From Agathobaculum sp. (GTDB lineage Bacteria; Bacillota; Clostridia; Oscillospirales; Butyricicoccaceae): a stretch of 53,045 bases of DNA. The stretch spans positions 1 to 53,045 of the forward strand of contig NZ_JALFLA010000004.1 in assembly GCF_022775115.1 (NCBI RefSeq), read 5' to 3'. The notes under the pieces are model-generated. The model was not told the DNA's origin. It saw nothing but the letters and a program-made list of their open reading frames with translations, and did not search any database. Shown piece by piece: positions 43,901 to 50,479 of the stretch (position 1 is the first letter of the stretch; every line of letters begins with the position of its first letter). The position numbers and the translations under genes were made by a program.

Positions 43901-44288
43901 GCGAAGCGGCCTGCTGTCGGATGATATGGCGCTGCTCGAAGCAATGGAGCATGGCCTTTCGGGCGACGGGCGGTTTATCCCAGTCACGATCAAGACAAAA
44001 AAGGGTGAGGACGCGCCCTCTATAGCCGCAAAATCGGCGGTAGCCGGATTGGAGCAGTTTGGCCGGTTGGCGCGGTATACGCACGAAAAGCTGCTCGAAA
44101 TGGGCCGTTTGCTGCGGGAGGGCAGCGTGGTGGCCGACCCCTGTAAGAAGGATAAAAAGTCCAGCTTTTGTGATTGGTGCGATTTCCGGGCAGCCTGCCG
44201 GTTTGATGAGACGGCGGGTGACCGGGCGCGCTGGCTCCGGCATTTGTCGGATGAGGAATTTTGGCAGCAGGTGGGAGGTGAGCGGTAA
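40917..44288 (+). CDS. addB: ATP-dependent helicase/nuclease subunit B (AddB)
   Basis: 1123 residues. With AddA it resects double-strand breaks up to a Chi-like site for recombination. Walker A is at residues 6-14 (GRAGSGKST). The C-terminal RecB-type nuclease domain has SGKVDRVDGYIKNG and the DYKSGKKSF motif. An iron-sulfur cluster is indicated by Cys754 (TFYSCRFAFF) with the C-terminal trio Cys1085, Cys1088 and Cys1094 (CDWCDFRAAC), the AddB hallmark. It overlaps the addA start by one base. Its coding sequence is among the most GC-rich in the window. Confidence 0.95.
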   Translation: MRIWTGRAGSGKSTAILSEIAAASRAGEGRQILLVPELGSHRMERRLAAFTANQGARTAEVLTFSRLADRVFAEVGGLAQQMLTPAGRLLTLQEAARRVQAGLSAWSGLADKPELLGEALRLIDECKTCATPPEKLFEAAQACADETLCAKLSDLAQLLTAYDRLCEQSVPDPRDRLTHLCDSLPHSRVLEGATVYLDGFLSYTPQELAVVDQMLAMRTPLAAAVTCDPAYPDVFVTGCRTVRTLSRMAARHGMRATRIDLGASRVTRPPDLAAVERESLLPVRTPQPAQGQGVTIYAAASPFDECEHAAAFIRRMVRDAGARYRDFIIAARDIEPYTGFLAMAMARYDVPVFLAEKPDLLSRPPMALVIGALDAVQSYFRYEDIFACFKTGLTHLTRDESDTLENYVLLWSIRGSAWERPWTAHPDGYGQPFDRVARARLDVLNALRQKAIEPFSALRTRLSGENPAADCVRALYDFLCMVDTPQRLSDRAAAHEAAGRLQLADEYRQLWEILVSAMEQFAWVCGETPLSAQRFAQLFRLVLGEYDVGTIPVSLDRVTCGSIDRACGENAKYLILLGVNDGLIPKAPALTSLLSDMDRDKLDALGVELKAAGAERLLMEQETLYKALACSTDALLLSYHTSDAAGGEARPSYFIGTVTSLLPGVPFSDHLTESGHDRLQAERPAVEAACAWLSGDRSPAVRAAYAYYKDDTRVLEAAAQRRGRGPLTSPHTIDGLYGKSLNLTASRVDTFYSCRFAFFMQYGLKAKPRRVAKFDALETGTFLHYVLEHALDALGKQEGGAAAADKAAAGRACRAAVRQYVDEELGGLEDKSARFRYLFGRLTRMAAQVLENVLDELRVSDFAPIDYEVDFSRGGDLPPVCCEEGALSVSLSGKVDRVDGYIKNGRLYLRVMDYKSGKKSFSLSDIWHGLNMQLIIYLYALQREGLERYRARLTAELNEIVPAGVLYVPVRDELPEAARDVDEDTLRALRDKALRRSGLLSDDMALLEAMEHGLSGDGRFIPVTIKTKKGEDAPSIAAKSAVAGLEQFGRLARYTHEKLLEMGRLLREGSVVADPCKKDKKSSFCDWCDFRAACRFDETAGDRARWLRHLSDEEFWQQVGGER

Positions 44289-47200
44289 TGCCGCGGTGGA
44301 CAAAGGATCAGCAAACTGCGATCGAGGACCGGGGCGGTGCGCTGCTCGTCTCGGCGGCGGCAGGCTCGGGCAAAACAGCCGTGCTGGTCGAGCGGGTGCT
44401 GCGCCGCCTGACCGACCCTGCTGAGCCGGTCGATATCGACCGGCTGCTGCTCGTCACCTTTACTAACGCGGCGGCGGCCGAAATGCGCGCGCGCATCGGC
44501 GCGGCGCTTGGAGAGGCTGTGGCGCGCGACCCACAAAATACACGCTTGCGCCGCCAGCTTTTTCTGGTGCATCGCGCCAAAATAACAACGGTGCACGCCA
44601 TGTGCTTGTCGCTGGCGCGGGAGCAGGCGGCGGCGCTTGGCATCGCGCCCGACTTTCGCCTGATGGATGAGCAGGAGGGTAAACTGCTTCGTGCCGAGGT
44701 GCTGGAGGAGGCGCTGGACGCGGCGTATGCGCGCGCGGAGGAGGGCTTTTTCGCGCTGTGCGACCTGCTGACTGCCGGACGGGACGATAAAAAGCTTGGT
44801 GAGGTCATCCTCAGCACCTATGAGAAAATACAGGCGCATCCCGACCCGCGCGCGTTTCTGGAAACCGTGCGGCAGGGCTTGCACGCCGCAGGCATGGACA
44901 CACCGCACGGACAGGTGCTGCGCACACAGGCGTGCACGGCGGCGGAATACGGTGCGTCCTTTCTGCGCACAGGCATCGCGGCGATTGAGGGCATTGACGA
45001 ACTGCGTGACACCTATCTGCCTACGCTGACAAGCGATTTGCAGCAGGCCATGCGGTTGCTGGACGTGCTGCGCGGCGGCACATGGGACGAATGCGTCGAG
45101 GCCGCGCGGTCGATCTCGTTTGACCGGCTCAAGGCGGCGCGCGGCTTTGAAGACAAGGCGCTGCTTGAGGAGATCAAAGCGCTGCGCGAGGAGTGGAAAA
45201 CGGTCGCCAAGGAGATCAGGGGAAAGTGGCTGACGGTCACCGCCTGCGAAGCCGAGCACGACCGCGCGCTGACCGCGCCCGCGCTCGGTGCGCTGACTGA
45301 CATGGTGTGCGCCTTTGACGATGCGTTTTCCGCGGCCAAGCGCGCGCGCAATGCGGCGGATTTTAACGATTTGGAGCACTTTGCCGTGCGACTGTTGTAT
45401 GACGGGCAACGGCCGTCCGCGCTCGCCCGCTCGCTGGCTGAGGGCTATGCCGAGATCGCGGTGGACGAGTATCAGGATACCAACGCCGTGCAGGATGCGA
45501 TTTTCCGCGCGCTGTCGCGGGAGGAGAGCAACCTGTTCATGGTAGGTGACGTTAAGCAGAGCATCTATGGTTTTCGCTTAGCCGACCCCTCCATTTTTCT
45601 GGATAAATACCGTGCGTTCGCAGATGCGGAGGAGGCGGCGGCAGGTACGCCGCGCCGTGTCATCCTTGGGCAGAATTTTCGCTCACGCGCGGCGGTGCTG
45701 GACGCTTGCAACTACCTGTTTTCCGCCGTGATGGGCGAGACGGTGGGCGACCTTGCGTACACCGACCGCGAAGCGCTGCACCTCGGCGCGGCGTATCCCG
45801 ATGCGGGGCATACACGCTACCGAACCGAGGTACTGCTGGTCGACGCAGCCGAGCTGGGCGATGATGATGACGCGCCCGATAAGACCGCGCTGGAGGCCCG
45901 CTTGGCCGCGGCACGCATCCGGCGGCTGCTGGACGAGGGCTTCCCGGTGACTGATCAGGCGACCGGCAGGCTGCGCCCGGTCACAGCGGGGGATATCGTC
46001 ATTTTGCTGCGCTCGCCGAGAACCAAGGCGCGTATATTCGCTGCTGCGCTTGAGCAGGTCGGCATTGCCGCGCTTGCTGAGGAGCGGAGTGGTCTGCTCG
46101 AAACAGCCGAGGTGGGCACCATGGTCTCGCTGCTCAGCGTGATCGACAATCCGCGGCAGGACGTTGACCTGATCGGCGTACTACGCTCGCCGCTGTTTGG
46201 CTTTACCGAGCAGGAGCTGGCCGATATCCGGCTGACCGACCGCGCGGTCAGCTTTTACGATGCGCTGCTGCGCGCCCGCGCGGATTTTCCCAAGGTCGAG
46301 CTGTTTTTGCAGCGGCTTACCTTCTTGCGGGATTTTGCTTGCGATCAGCCGGTTTACCGGCTGCTGTGGGAGATATACGACCAGACCGGCGCGCTCGGCC
46401 TGTATGGCGCGCTGCCAAACGGCGCGCGGCGGCAGGCCAATCTGCTGGCGTTTTTCGAGCGGGCACGCGTCTTTGAGGGACAGGGTTTTCGCGGCCTGTT
46501 TGCCTTTGTGCGCTTACTGAGCGGGATGCGGCAGACGGGTGAGGATTTCCAAACGACCGGCGCGGAGACAGGCGGGGGTGCGGTGCGCATTATGAGCATC
46601 CATAAGTCCAAGGGGTTGGAATTTCCGGTCGTGTTGGTGGCTGATTGCGCCAAGCAGTTCAACGAAGCCGATCTGCGCGAGCCGGTTTTGGTGCACAGTG
46701 CGCTGGGCTTTGGCGCAAAGTGTCGTGACCGTGCGCGCGGACTGCAATACAACACAGCCGAGCGCGCGGCGGTCGCCGCCTGCAAGCGGCGGGAAATGGT
46801 TAGCGAGGAGCTGCGTGTATTGTATGTTGCGCTGACGCGCGCCAGAGAAAAGCTGATCGTCACCTGCGCAAGTGGTACACTTACGGCCAACCTTCAGCGC
46901 TGGGCGCGTCTGGCTGCGCTCGATACCTTGCCGCAATATGCAATGGGCGCGGTGCGCGCGCCGCTGGCATGGCTGGTTGCGCCGCTGCTGCGGCATCCAT
47001 GCACGCGGACATTGCGGGAGCGGTATGTGCTGGACGTACCTGAGCACGGCACGGACTGCGATGCGTTCACCGTGCGTGTTGTTACGCCGGACGAGCTGGG
47101 CGAGCCTACGCCGGAGCAGGTGGTGGCGTTTGCCGAGCCTGCGGACGAAGCATATCAAGTCATCCCCTATCTGGACTATCCGAACGCCTATCTGGCCGAA

Positions 47201-47848
47201 CTGCCCAGCAAGCTGACAGCCACAGGCATCGGCCGGGGGTACCGCGCCGACGAGGCCGCCGAGCAGACGCCGCCGCCGCGCCGTGAGACCACGCTGCGCG
47301 TGCCGCTGTTTGAGCAGCAGGCGTGCCGGCTTAGCCCGGCGGAGATCGGTACGGCGCATCACTTGTTCATGCAGTTTTGCGATTTTGACGCGGCAAGCGC
47401 GCCGGGCGGCGTGCAGCGGGAGCTGGCTCGGCTGGCGGATAAGAATATCCTGTCGCCCGCACAGGCAGCGGCGGTCAATACCGAACGGATCGAAATGTTC
47501 TTCACCTCTGCGCTGTACCGCACGCTGATAGCCGAGCACCCGGTGCGGCGGGAGTTTAAGTTTTCCGTGCTTGTGCCCGCGATGCGGTATTATGAGATAG
47601 CCGCAAACGCACCAGAAGAAAAGGTGCTGCTGCAGGGCGTGATCGACTGTTTGATCGACACGCCGGAGGGATTTATTATTCTGGACTTTAAGACCGACCG
47701 CGTCGGCGAGGCAGGACTTGCCGCGCGCGCCGCGCGCTATCGCACGCAGATGGATGCGTATGCCTATGCAGTGCGCGAGGTGTTTGATCGACCGGTCGTG
47801 CGGCAGCTCCTATACTTCTTTTATTCTGGGATAATATGTGAATTATAG
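44288..47848 (+). CDS. addA: ATP-dependent helicase/nuclease subunit A (AddA)
   Basis: 1186 residues, a UvrD-type superfamily 1 helicase with a C-terminal nuclease. Visible: Walker A at residues 23-30 (AAAGSGKT), motif Ia (LLLVTFTNAAAAEMRARI), motif II (IAVDEYQDTN), motif III (MVGDVKQSIYGFRLADP), motif V-VI (IMSIHKSKGLEFPVVLVADC and LYVALTRAREKLIV). The nuclease core reads GVIDCLIDTPEGFIILDFKT followed by D. It starts at the TAATG overlap with addB, so the two subunits are made together. The transcript has no strong terminator directly after it. Confidence 0.96.
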   Translation: MPRWTKDQQTAIEDRGGALLVSAAAGSGKTAVLVERVLRRLTDPAEPVDIDRLLLVTFTNAAAAEMRARIGAALGEAVARDPQNTRLRRQLFLVHRAKITTVHAMCLSLAREQAAALGIAPDFRLMDEQEGKLLRAEVLEEALDAAYARAEEGFFALCDLLTAGRDDKKLGEVILSTYEKIQAHPDPRAFLETVRQGLHAAGMDTPHGQVLRTQACTAAEYGASFLRTGIAAIEGIDELRDTYLPTLTSDLQQAMRLLDVLRGGTWDECVEAARSISFDRLKAARGFEDKALLEEIKALREEWKTVAKEIRGKWLTVTACEAEHDRALTAPALGALTDMVCAFDDAFSAAKRARNAADFNDLEHFAVRLLYDGQRPSALARSLAEGYAEIAVDEYQDTNAVQDAIFRALSREESNLFMVGDVKQSIYGFRLADPSIFLDKYRAFADAEEAAAGTPRRVILGQNFRSRAAVLDACNYLFSAVMGETVGDLAYTDREALHLGAAYPDAGHTRYRTEVLLVDAAELGDDDDAPDKTALEARLAAARIRRLLDEGFPVTDQATGRLRPVTAGDIVILLRSPRTKARIFAAALEQVGIAALAEERSGLLETAEVGTMVSLLSVIDNPRQDVDLIGVLRSPLFGFTEQELADIRLTDRAVSFYDALLRARADFPKVELFLQRLTFLRDFACDQPVYRLLWEIYDQTGALGLYGALPNGARRQANLLAFFERARVFEGQGFRGLFAFVRLLSGMRQTGEDFQTTGAETGGGAVRIMSIHKSKGLEFPVVLVADCAKQFNEADLREPVLVHSALGFGAKCRDRARGLQYNTAERAAVAACKRREMVSEELRVLYVALTRAREKLIVTCASGTLTANLQRWARLAALDTLPQYAMGAVRAPLAWLVAPLLRHPCTRTLRERYVLDVPEHGTDCDAFTVRVVTPDELGEPTPEQVVAFAEPADEAYQVIPYLDYPNAYLAELPSKLTATGIGRGYRADEAAEQTPPPRRETTLRVPLFEQQACRLSPAEIGTAHHLFMQFCDFDAASAPGGVQRELARLADKNILSPAQAAAVNTERIEMFFTSALYRTLIAEHPVRREFKFSVLVPAMRYYEIAANAPEEKVLLQGVIDCLIDTPEGFIILDFKTDRVGEAGLAARAARYRTQMDAYAYAVREVFDRPVVRQLLYFFYSGIICEL

Positions 47849-47886
47849 AGAGGGAGTTAAGAATTCGTTAAGAACAATATTAAAGA

Positions 47887-47915
47887 TTGACAAAACTGAC
47901 ACAAACTGATAAACT
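47887..47915 (+). promoter_or_regulatory. Sigma-A promoter upstream of a structured RNA
   Basis: A consensus TTGACA (47887-47892), 17 bases, TAAACT (47910-47915). The start of transcription should be near 47922. The next gene, guaB, has a separate promoter at 48134-48162. Confidence 0.75.
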
Positions 47916-47921
47916 ATAAAC

Positions 47922-48051
47922 AATCCAAGCGAAAGGCGGCATACCGCATGCCGACGGATGCTTGGAGAACCCATCTTTTGACCGCAACCTTCATTCCTCA
48001 TTTCCAAATAGAAAGGGCTGCAGCTGTATGCTGTGGCTCTTTCTATATTTT
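47922..48051 (+). ncRNA. Candidate small RNA or leader RNA before guaB
   Basis: About 130 bases between a consensus promoter and a terminator hairpin, with no credible reading frame. The 5' part folds as a closed unit: TCCAAGC (47924-47930) pairs with GCTTGGA (47960-47966), enclosing CGGCAT/ATGCCG (47937-47942 with 47948-47953) and an ACCGC loop. An A/C/T-rich single-strand segment follows, then a 17-base-pair terminator. TTGGA of the first stem could also pair with TCCAA at about 48003-48007, which would give an alternative fold. I could not match it to purine, 6S, SRP or other RNA families I know. Confidence 0.5.
48008..48051 (+). terminator. Terminator of the RNA upstream of guaB
   Basis: ATAGAAAGGGCTGCAGC (48008-48024) pairs with GCTGTGGCTCTTTCTAT (48030-48046) with three G-U pairs, TGTAT loop, followed by ATTTTGGG. 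Confidence 0.75.
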
Positions 48052-48126
48052 GGGAAAAGATGCGAAAAAGCGTGCCGGTGTGCGCGGTTTCTGCGGCGTC
48101 GGCAAAAAAACGTAGAATCTGTCAGA

Positions 48127-48162
48127 TGTCCGCTTTACTTTGGCGGACAAACAGGCTATAAT
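48127..48162 (+). promoter_or_regulatory. guaB promoter with an inverted repeat around its -35
   Basis: TTTACT (48134-48139), 17 bases, TATAAT (48157-48162). TGTCCGC (48127-48133) and GCGGACA (48143-48149) form a 7-base inverted repeat that encloses the -35, so a repressor or a small hairpin could act there. Expected start of transcription is near 48169. Confidence 0.65.
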
Positions 48163-48208
48163 GATAGCAATATTGCATTTTGGACAGATAGGAAGGAGAA
48201 AAATCAGT

Positions 48209-49714
48209 ATGGCCTATTATTTCAGTGAGCCCTCGCACACGTTCAACGAATATCTGCTGGTGCCCGGTTACTCGTCGGCAGATTGCATCCCGGCGAATGT
48301 CAGCCTGCGCACCCCGATCGTCAAGTATAAAAAGGGGGAGACAGCAGCGCTGTATGCCAATATCCCGATGGTGTCAGCTATCATGCAAGCTGTTTCAGAC
48401 GACCGTATGGCAATCGCGCTGGCGCAGGAGGGTGGCATTTCCTTTATCTACGGCTCGCAGACGATCGAGAGCGAGGCTGCGATGGTCGCCCGTGTCAAGA
48501 GCTACAAGGCGGGCTTTATCGTGTCCGACTCCAATCTGCGGCCTGACCAAACACTGGCCGATGTGCTTGCTCTCAAGCAGCGCACCGGGCATTCGACTAT
48601 GGCGGTCACCAATGACGGCACGGCGACCGGCAAGCTGCTCGGCATTGTGACCAGCCGCGATTACCGGGTCTCCCGCATGTCGCCCGATACCAAGGTGTCC
48701 GCGTTTATGACGCCGTTTGAAAAGCTCATCACCGCGCCGGAGGATACCACCCTGAAAACCGCAAACGACATCATTTGGGACAACAAGCTCAACGCTTTGC
48801 CGCTGGTCGATGATAAGCAGCGTCTTGTCTATCTGGTATTCCGCAAGGACTATGATTCCCACAAGGCCAACTCGCTGGAAATGCTGGACAGCCACAAGCG
48901 CTATGTGGTCGGCGCGGGCATCAATACGCGCGACTATGCGGAGCGTGTGCCCGCGCTGGTAGAGGCCGGTGCGGACGTGCTGTGCATCGACTCGTCCGAG
49001 GGCTTTTCCGAGTGGCAGAGCCGCACACTGGCATGGGTGCGCGAGCGTTACGGTGATTCGGTCAAGATAGGTGCGGGTAACGTGGTCGACCGCGAGGGGT
49101 TCCGCTTTTTGGCAGACGCGGGCGCGGACTTTATCAAGGTCGGCATCGGCGGCGGCTCGATCTGCATTACCCGAGAGCAGAAAGGCATCGGCCGTGGGCA
49201 GGCGACTGCGCTGATAGAGGTTGCCGCGGCGCGCGACAAGTATTTTCTGGAAACCGGCATCTATGTGCCGATCTGCTCGGATGGCGGCATCGTGCACGAT
49301 TACCACTGCACGCTGGCGCTCGCCATGGGTGCGGATTTCCTGATGCTTGGCCGCTACTTCTCGCGCTTTGACGAGTCCCCGACCAACAAGGTCAACATCA
49401 ACGGCAGCTATATGAAGGAATATTGGGGCGAGGGCTCGGCGCGCGCGCGCAACTGGCAGCGCTATGATATGGGCGGCGACAAGAAGCTCTCTTTCGAGGA
49501 GGGCGTCGACTCCTATGTACCATATGCCGGCTCGCTCAAGGACAACCTTGGCCTGACGCTGAGCAAGGTGCGCTCGACTATGTGCAACTGCGGCGCGCTC
49601 TCGATTCCAGAGTTCCAGAAGAAGGCCAAGCTGACGCTGGTTTCGGCGACCTCGATCGTCGAGGGCGGCGCGCACGACGTTGTCCTCAAGGAAACGGCGA
49701 CAACCTCTAAGTAA
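48209..49714 (+). CDS. guaB: IMP dehydrogenase, Tritrichomonas-like type
   Basis: 501 residues from ATG 48209 after GGAAGGAGAA; an earlier in-frame ATG (48140) lies inside the promoter. It oxidises IMP to XMP with NAD, the first committed step of GMP synthesis. Catalytic Cys319 lies in [20 protein letters not shown], Asp261 in CIDSSEG, and the mobile flap carries Arg418-Tyr419 ([11 protein letters not shown]). Residues about 95-220 are a CBS-pair domain. These residue numbers and motifs match those I know for the Tritrichomonas foetus enzyme and differ from the usual bacterial form (about 485-490 residues, YRGMGS flap). A strong terminator follows. Confidence 0.96.
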
Positions 49715-49733
49715 TGCTCGCAAAACCGTATGC

Positions 49734-49765
49734 TTGCCCCGCAGACCGCTGCGGGGCAATTTTTA
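49734..49765 (+). terminator. guaB terminator
   Basis: Perfect 11-base arms TTGCCCCGCAG (49734-49744) and CTGCGGGGCAA (49749-49759), ACCG loop, then TTTTTAT. Confidence 0.95.
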
Positions 49766-49819
49766 TCAGAGCGCAAAAGGCAGACGGTAGGCGGAAATAT
49801 GGATGGGAAGGAGCACAAC

Positions 49820-50479
49820 ATGCATCATTTTAAGGGCGCGATCTTTGATATGGACGGTACGCTGCTGGACTCCATGCCGGTATGGGATCGGCTGAGCGAA
49901 CGGTATTTGAGCCGGTTTGGCATACGGGTGGCCGAGCGGGACTATGTAGCAATCGAGGGCATGACGCAGATGCAGGCGGCACAATATTTTATTGATGCCT
50001 ATCCGGCACTGCCGATGGATGCGCAGACGCTCGCACAGGGGCTGGACGAGCTGATCGACGCGCGGTATGAGGCGCTCGCGCGGCCAAGAGATGGTGTGCT
50101 GCACCTGCTGGATGCGCTGCGAGAGAGAGGGATCGGTATGGCAGTTGCCACGCTGACCGCGCGCAGACACGCGGAAAAGGCACTGCGCGCGCATGGAATG
50201 CTCGATTATTTTCGCTTTCTGCTGACCATCGAGGACGTGGGCGTGTCCAAACGGCAGCCGGATATCTATCTGCACGCGGCAGGGCGGCTTGGGCTGACGC
50301 CGACAGAATGCATCGTGTTCGAGGATGCTCCCTATGCTTGCACGACCGCGCAGCGCGCGGGCTTTACTGTGTGCGGCATGGCCGAGCCGGCGTATGCGGC
50401 GGGTGTATGTGAAACGCGCAGAGCCAGTACGTTTTTTGTGGAGCACTCGTTTGACGAGCTTTGGGGAAAAATGTTGTAA
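49820..50479 (+). CDS. HAD-superfamily phosphatase (phosphoglycolate phosphatase / beta-phosphoglucomutase-like)
   Basis: 219 residues from ATG 49820, six bases after GGGAAGGAG (49805-49813); earlier in-frame starts lie within or before the guaB terminator. Motif I is FDMDGTLLDS with nucleophile Asp10 and acid-base Asp12. Motif II is VATLTAR, motif III uses Lys in SKRQPDIYLHAA, and motif IV is CIVFEDAPYA. A helical cap lies between motifs I and II (about residues 18-85). The substrate is not visible from sequence; small sugar or glycolate phosphates are usual for the subgroup. It has no clear functional tie to its neighbours. Confidence 0.88.
   Translation: MHHFKGAIFDMDGTLLDSMPVWDRLSERYLSRFGIRVAERDYVAIEGMTQMQAAQYFIDAYPALPMDAQTLAQGLDELIDARYEALARPRDGVLHLLDALRERGIGMAVATLTARRHAEKALRAHGMLDYFRFLLTIEDVGVSKRQPDIYLHAAGRLGLTPTECIVFEDAPYACTTAQRAGFTVCGMAEPAYAAGVCETRRASTFFVEHSFDELWGKML

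Follow-up and report, generated by a model that had tools for sequence, protein, structure and literature searches.

A probable small RNA gene between addA and guaB in Agathobaculum, with a predicted anti-ribosome-site strand and a putative response regulator repeat

The closest described systems are the csRNAs of streptococci, which depend on CiaR. They combine the response-regulator repeat TTTAAG-N5-TTTAAG with a pair of stem-loops and an anti-ribosome-site strand that is left unpaired (PMC3091779, PMC8186281). They are about 50–200 nt long, and their unpaired strand is anti-Shine-Dalgarno and anti-AUG (PMC3091779). We analyzed a stretch of 53,045 nucleotides from Agathobaculum sp. (contig NZ_JALFLA010000004.1), hereafter called the window. 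At positions 47887-48051 it contains an extended -10 promoter, a 5′ stem, a single strand of about 28 nt, and a terminator hairpin. The unit is located between addA and guaB, and all three are on the + strand. It is very probably a free-standing sRNA gene. The features of the locus are as follows.

44288-47848, + strand: addA, the upstream neighbor (TIGR02785, E = 3.8e-291)
47856-47872, + strand: direct repeat GTTAAG-AATTC-GTTAAG, putative site of an OmpR-family response regulator
47887-47915, + strand: sRNA promoter, TTGACA, 17-bp spacer, and TG-n-TAAACT (extended -10)
47922-48051, + strand: body of the sRNA gene, about 125-130 nt, with the start inferred from the -10 box
47924-47966, + strand: 5′ stem-loop, predicted fold
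47981-48008, + strand: conserved unpaired strand ACCGCAACCTTCATTCCTCATTTCCAAA, the predicted seed, with its core at 47990-48007
48008-48051, + strand: intrinsic terminator hairpin (17 pairs) with T-rich tail, predicted fold
48134-48162, + strand: guaB promoter TTTACT-17-TATAAT, downstream of the sRNA terminator
48180-48199, + strand: stretch of the guaB leader able to pair with the seed, a candidate target that is weak in the window species
48209-49714, + strand: guaB (IMP dehydrogenase), the downstream neighbor (NF005493, E = 6e-297)

The initial annotation had described a consensus promoter, a compact nested stem, and a strong terminator, and all three were recovered. The promoter elements TTGACA (47887-47892), TG (47907-47908), and TAAACT (47910-47915) matched the consensus at 10 of 12 positions. 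The sRNA promoters of the relatives contained TTGACA and a TGCTAACCT-like -10 box. In the nested stem, 47924-47931 pairs with 47959-47966 and 47937-47942 with 47948-47953. The fold of the window copy was more stable than shuffled sequences (z = -4.1), none of 200 shuffles being as good. In the terminator, 48008-48024 pairs with 48030-48046, and the tail is TATATTTT in the window and CTTTCTTTTT in relatives. A simple terminator scanner did not flag this hairpin on the + strand because the T run is short and lies partly within the stem. The 5′ stem presumably shields the RNA end, and the terminator hairpin would stop the transcript. The conserved strand at 47981-48008 and the direct repeat at 47856-47872 had both been overlooked in the initial annotation. 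In one subclade (e.g., L003, L004, L005, and L007), an extra outer stem GGAAAA.../...TTTTCC runs from the sRNA 5′ end to the linker before the seed.

A covariance model was built without the window copy and searched against 25 Agathobaculum genomes. Full-length matches (E ≤ 4.4e-11) were found in 21 of them, with one strong copy per genome; the window copy scored E = 4.4e-11. The sRNA was missing from the other four (G002, G011, G024, and G018). Covariation in guaB upstream regions had been proposed as a check, and it was found in an alignment of 18 relatives. In their consensus structure, two 5-bp helices are stacked, and a terminator of 17 bp follows. Compensatory double changes occurred in 17 of the 27 pairs, and 93.8% of cells were paired. 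This level was reached by 0 of 500 shuffles, and structures slid along the alignment paired 41-58% of cells. The 5′ helices contributed 10 pairs, five with compensatory changes and 96.6% of cells paired; the terminator hairpin had such changes in 12 of its 17 pairs. The 5′ stem of the window copy is built differently from the helices of the relatives and is of equal strength. Because a covarying unit is conserved this widely in the genus, sequence comparison indicated that it is more than chance.

The distribution was followed with several searches. A DNA search matched 22 genomes within the genus and no genome from other genera, although some matches spanned only the guaB promoter. At most of the matched loci, the unit was upstream of guaB. 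When 62 other genomes of the family were searched with the covariance model, no convincing copy was found. Weak model matches beyond the genus were rejected, as those fetched had no seed and were probably chance matches to terminators. An exact 18-mer seed scan of 84,980 species genomes gave no convincing copy outside Agathobaculum and its MAGs; the 18-mer matches elsewhere lacked the following hairpin and looked like chance. The initial annotation could not assign the RNA to a known family, and the Rfam search agreed: neither the window nor any of five relatives matched a family at the gathering score, and relaxing the threshold to E ≤ 10 brought up chance-level matches only. A literature search on sRNAs in Agathobaculum, in its near relatives, or upstream of guaB found nothing relevant. 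By these searches, the sRNA represents a new, genus-specific family of a familiar kind.

The open strand TTCATTCCTCATTTCC was the most conserved part of the sRNA, more so than the stem. It contains TCATTCCTCATTTC, identical in 21 of 21 sequences, and is invariant whereas its flanks vary. In predicted ensembles, its unpaired probability was mostly 0.85-1.0 in the window copy and averaged 0.79 across members, with low values in two. The complement of the strand, GGAAATGAGGAATGAATG, reads as a Shine-Dalgarno sequence with a start codon after it.

Genome-wide target tests were run on 2.4 Mb of one relative (G013). Against 1524 gene starts, the seed beat 40 of 40 dinucleotide shuffles in both mean energy and number of strong sites, a result to be read with caution, as any UUCCUC-bearing strand has some such character toward Shine-Dalgarno sites. 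The best sites clustered at -15 to 0 from the start codon. Sites with up to two mismatches from the seed complement were then counted, leaving out the sRNA gene itself in the carriers. The sRNA-bearing genomes had 148 sites versus 67 for reversed-pattern controls, and the sRNA-less genomes had 24 versus 22. The enrichment differed between carriers and non-carriers (Fisher p = 0.025), with the genomes being related and not independent samples.

The repeat GTTAAG-N5-GTTAAR was present upstream of the sRNA promoter in 20 of 21 members, its first half being degenerate in one; L002 is the member without it. Counting by eye placed the start of the repeat 32 bp before the -35 box TTGACA in the members examined; in the window the distance was 31 bp. 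None of the four genus genomes lacking the sRNA contained the exact pattern. With one mismatch allowed, the window's own genome showed no excess of the repeat over the reversed control. An 11-bp half-site period is typical of OmpR-family response regulators. The repeat and its fixed distance from the -35 box point to a regulator of this type, of which the genomes encode 12-23 each.

A second GTTAAGATTTCGTTAA box was observed once per genome in at least seven Agathobaculum genomes (G013 C2:2434737, G019 C17:120337, G005 C34:7179, G003 C23:920, G006 C21:25062, G007 C98:17404, and G020 C164:1874). These boxes probably mark a second promoter, orthologous among the genomes, that belongs to the same regulon. 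An OmpR-type regulator was sought in its neighborhood, and none was adjacent. G013 also carries the GTTAAG repeat at C2:1111153-1111168 (- strand), again 32 bp from TTGACA and before a YtvI/AI-2E-type transporter gene. The leader of this gene also holds the seed-complementary CCAGGAATGAC.

The separate guaB promoter noted in the initial annotation was confirmed downstream of the sRNA terminator. It is kept across the family, including genera and species without the sRNA. The promoter region (48098-48162 in the window and the same place in other genera) carries a family-wide block, TTTGCATA ... GTTTACTTTG or GCTTTACTTTG ... TATAAT. In the window, an inverted repeat TGTCCGC/GCGGACA surrounds the -35 box. 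The conserved block suggests a putative regulator site for guaB.

Candidate targets were assessed by predicted pairing with the seed. Only 12 of about 2430 G013 genes reached -20 kcal/mol. The best candidate is a ClC-type channel gene behind guaB, whose start region was predicted to pair at -18 to -26.9 kcal/mol in 10 of 12 sRNA-bearing species; the values in three sRNA-less species were -14.8 to -15.5 kcal/mol. Three registers are used in different lineages, each by a different sequence. In one subclade it is GGAAAGGGGAATGAATATG at the Shine-Dalgarno site; in G020 and G023 it is ATGAGGAATGAA, which lies across the first codons and gives 18 contiguous pairs in G023; and in G010 it is GGAAATGAGGGAGTG, again at the Shine-Dalgarno site. 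Which gene follows guaB depends on the species: it encodes a ClC channel, a nucleotidyltransferase-like protein, or, in the window, a HAD hydrolase. It is usually preceded by a terminator-like hairpin TTGCCCCG...CGGGGCAATT (relatives, e.g., L129:3007-3090; window, 49715-49840). The seed pairing of the HAD hydrolase gene in the window was unremarkable.

In the window's genome, a degV/fakB-like gene (degV) is a candidate target. It carries GAAATGAGGAATGA at its ribosome site, which is a perfect 14-nt complement of the seed, and it is unlinked to the sRNA gene. The gene was picked from G013 and then checked in orthologues. It was present in six of 25 genomes; pairing was strong in two of the three sRNA-bearing ones, and the copies in the three sRNA-less genomes had no perfect complement.

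The guaB leader is a weaker candidate. Its duplex with the seed was predicted at -14.7 kcal/mol in the window species, where 8% of shuffles were as good, at about -12 to -17.6 kcal/mol in most carriers, and at -16 to -17.6 kcal/mol in about a dozen relatives. Non-carriers gave -7 to -10.5 kcal/mol (four genus genomes) and -5 to -9.4 kcal/mol (other genera). The match AGGAATGAA plus GGAAA was found in most carriers and in neither sRNA-less genomes nor other genera. By energy, guaB was not an outstanding target, ranking 251st of 2434 in one relative, and its pairing was weak or missing in several carriers (G004, G010, and G014). A FabF-like gene that came out as a top candidate had high energy in one species only and failed as a conserved target. 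It is plausible from these predictions that targets vary among species.

Two general marks of trans-acting sRNAs, an own promoter and an own intrinsic terminator, were recognized from the sequence alone. A third, a conserved accessible seed complementary to mRNAs, was found by predicted pairing. We consider that the locus probably encodes a trans-acting sRNA that is controlled by a response regulator and blocks translation initiation. An OmpR-family response regulator would bind GTTAAG-N5-GTTAAG upstream of the -35 box and switch sRNA transcription. The open strand CAUUCAUUCCUCAUUUCC, which is anti-Shine-Dalgarno and anti-AUG, would then base-pair at the sites where translation of several mRNAs starts, keeping ribosomes from binding. 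The targets may include the ClC-type channel gene behind guaB, the degV/fakB-like gene in the window's genome, and, more weakly, the guaB leader. As hfq is encoded in 19 of 25 genus genomes, Hfq could help the sRNA.

The initial annotation had offered either a free-standing RNA of about 130 nt or an attenuator. The free-standing RNA was supported by its own promoter, its own terminator, the covariation, and the distance of about 5 kb between the sRNA gene and guaB in one genome (G012). A cis-acting leader, in which an attenuator or riboswitch controls guaB via a terminator switch, would fit the shared strand and the location before guaB, seen in nearly all carriers, and also the terminator at the end of the unit. 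It would also use the alternative TTGGA/TCCAA pairing noted earlier. That pairing is present in the window copy but nearly unique to it, since just two of the 21 members carry TTGGA within the 5′ half, and a terminator/antiterminator switch is not conserved. Furthermore, guaB has its family-wide promoter downstream of the terminator, no Rfam riboswitch matched, the sRNA gene lies away from guaB in G012, and the invariant part is the open strand. Control of guaB in cis is improbable on this evidence. An sRNA acting mainly on its neighbors, the guaB mRNA and the gene behind it, instead of on scattered mRNAs has more in its favor. The synteny is kept, guaB leader duplexes are stronger in most carriers than in non-carriers or other genera, and the ClC gene start pairs strongly by three registers. 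However, guaB is no top target by energy, and its leader pairs weakly in the three carriers named above. In the window species and others, a different gene follows guaB, unremarkable in its pairing in the window species, and the perfect degV site in the window's genome is unlinked. We regard action mainly on the neighbors as doubtful.

Two further explanations are very unlikely. One is that the unit does no more than terminate transcription downstream of addAB, with a promoter that arose by chance and without a functional RNA. One would expect a terminator between addA and guaB in any case, but the promoter is conserved with fixed box spacing, the 5′ stem covaries, the open strand stays invariant while its neighbors vary, and four genus genomes manage without the unit. 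The other is a small-peptide gene or a dual-function RNA, as a short open frame crosses the seed in some members (e.g., L013). Against it, start codons were not conserved among 21 members, two of which had no ATG, GTG, or TTG, and the helix changes preserve pairing. Judged by these sequences, the sRNA is non-coding.

For the trans-acting sRNA proposed here, the gene is defined, a seed has been predicted, a candidate site for a regulator is at hand, and the targets can be tested. In the literature searched, no sRNA has been described for Agathobaculum or near relatives, and the alignment and covariance model could found a new Rfam family. We take DegV-type proteins to be fatty-acid-binding, guaB to serve purine synthesis, and Agathobaculum to be gut butyrate producers. 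The promoter-stem-terminator layout is common to many riboswitches and sRNAs known in Rfam, although none of them matched. Compared with the csRNAs, the Agathobaculum sRNA differs in its unrelated host, its single copy versus several, and a repeat that precedes a full -35 box by 32 bp. It also shows no sequence homology to csRNAs and no Rfam family match, and it was filed as a new sRNA family and not as a csRNA because no homology was detectable. The likeness lies in the layout. Two stem-loops are predicted to flank an unpaired anti-Shine-Dalgarno/anti-AUG strand. GTTAAG-N5-GTTAAR, with the same half-site length and spacing as TTTAAG-N5-TTTAAG and nearly the same half-site, may be the counterpart of that repeat. 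By analogy, the new family may work like a csRNA. Tentatively, a csRNA-like module might have originated independently, in which an OmpR-type regulator drives an anti-ribosome-site sRNA and passes an envelope or ion signal to ClC, guaB, and DegV; we hold this to be possible and rather unlikely. Should the csRNA-like layout be confirmed, one and the same scheme of control would have arisen twice in Firmicutes.
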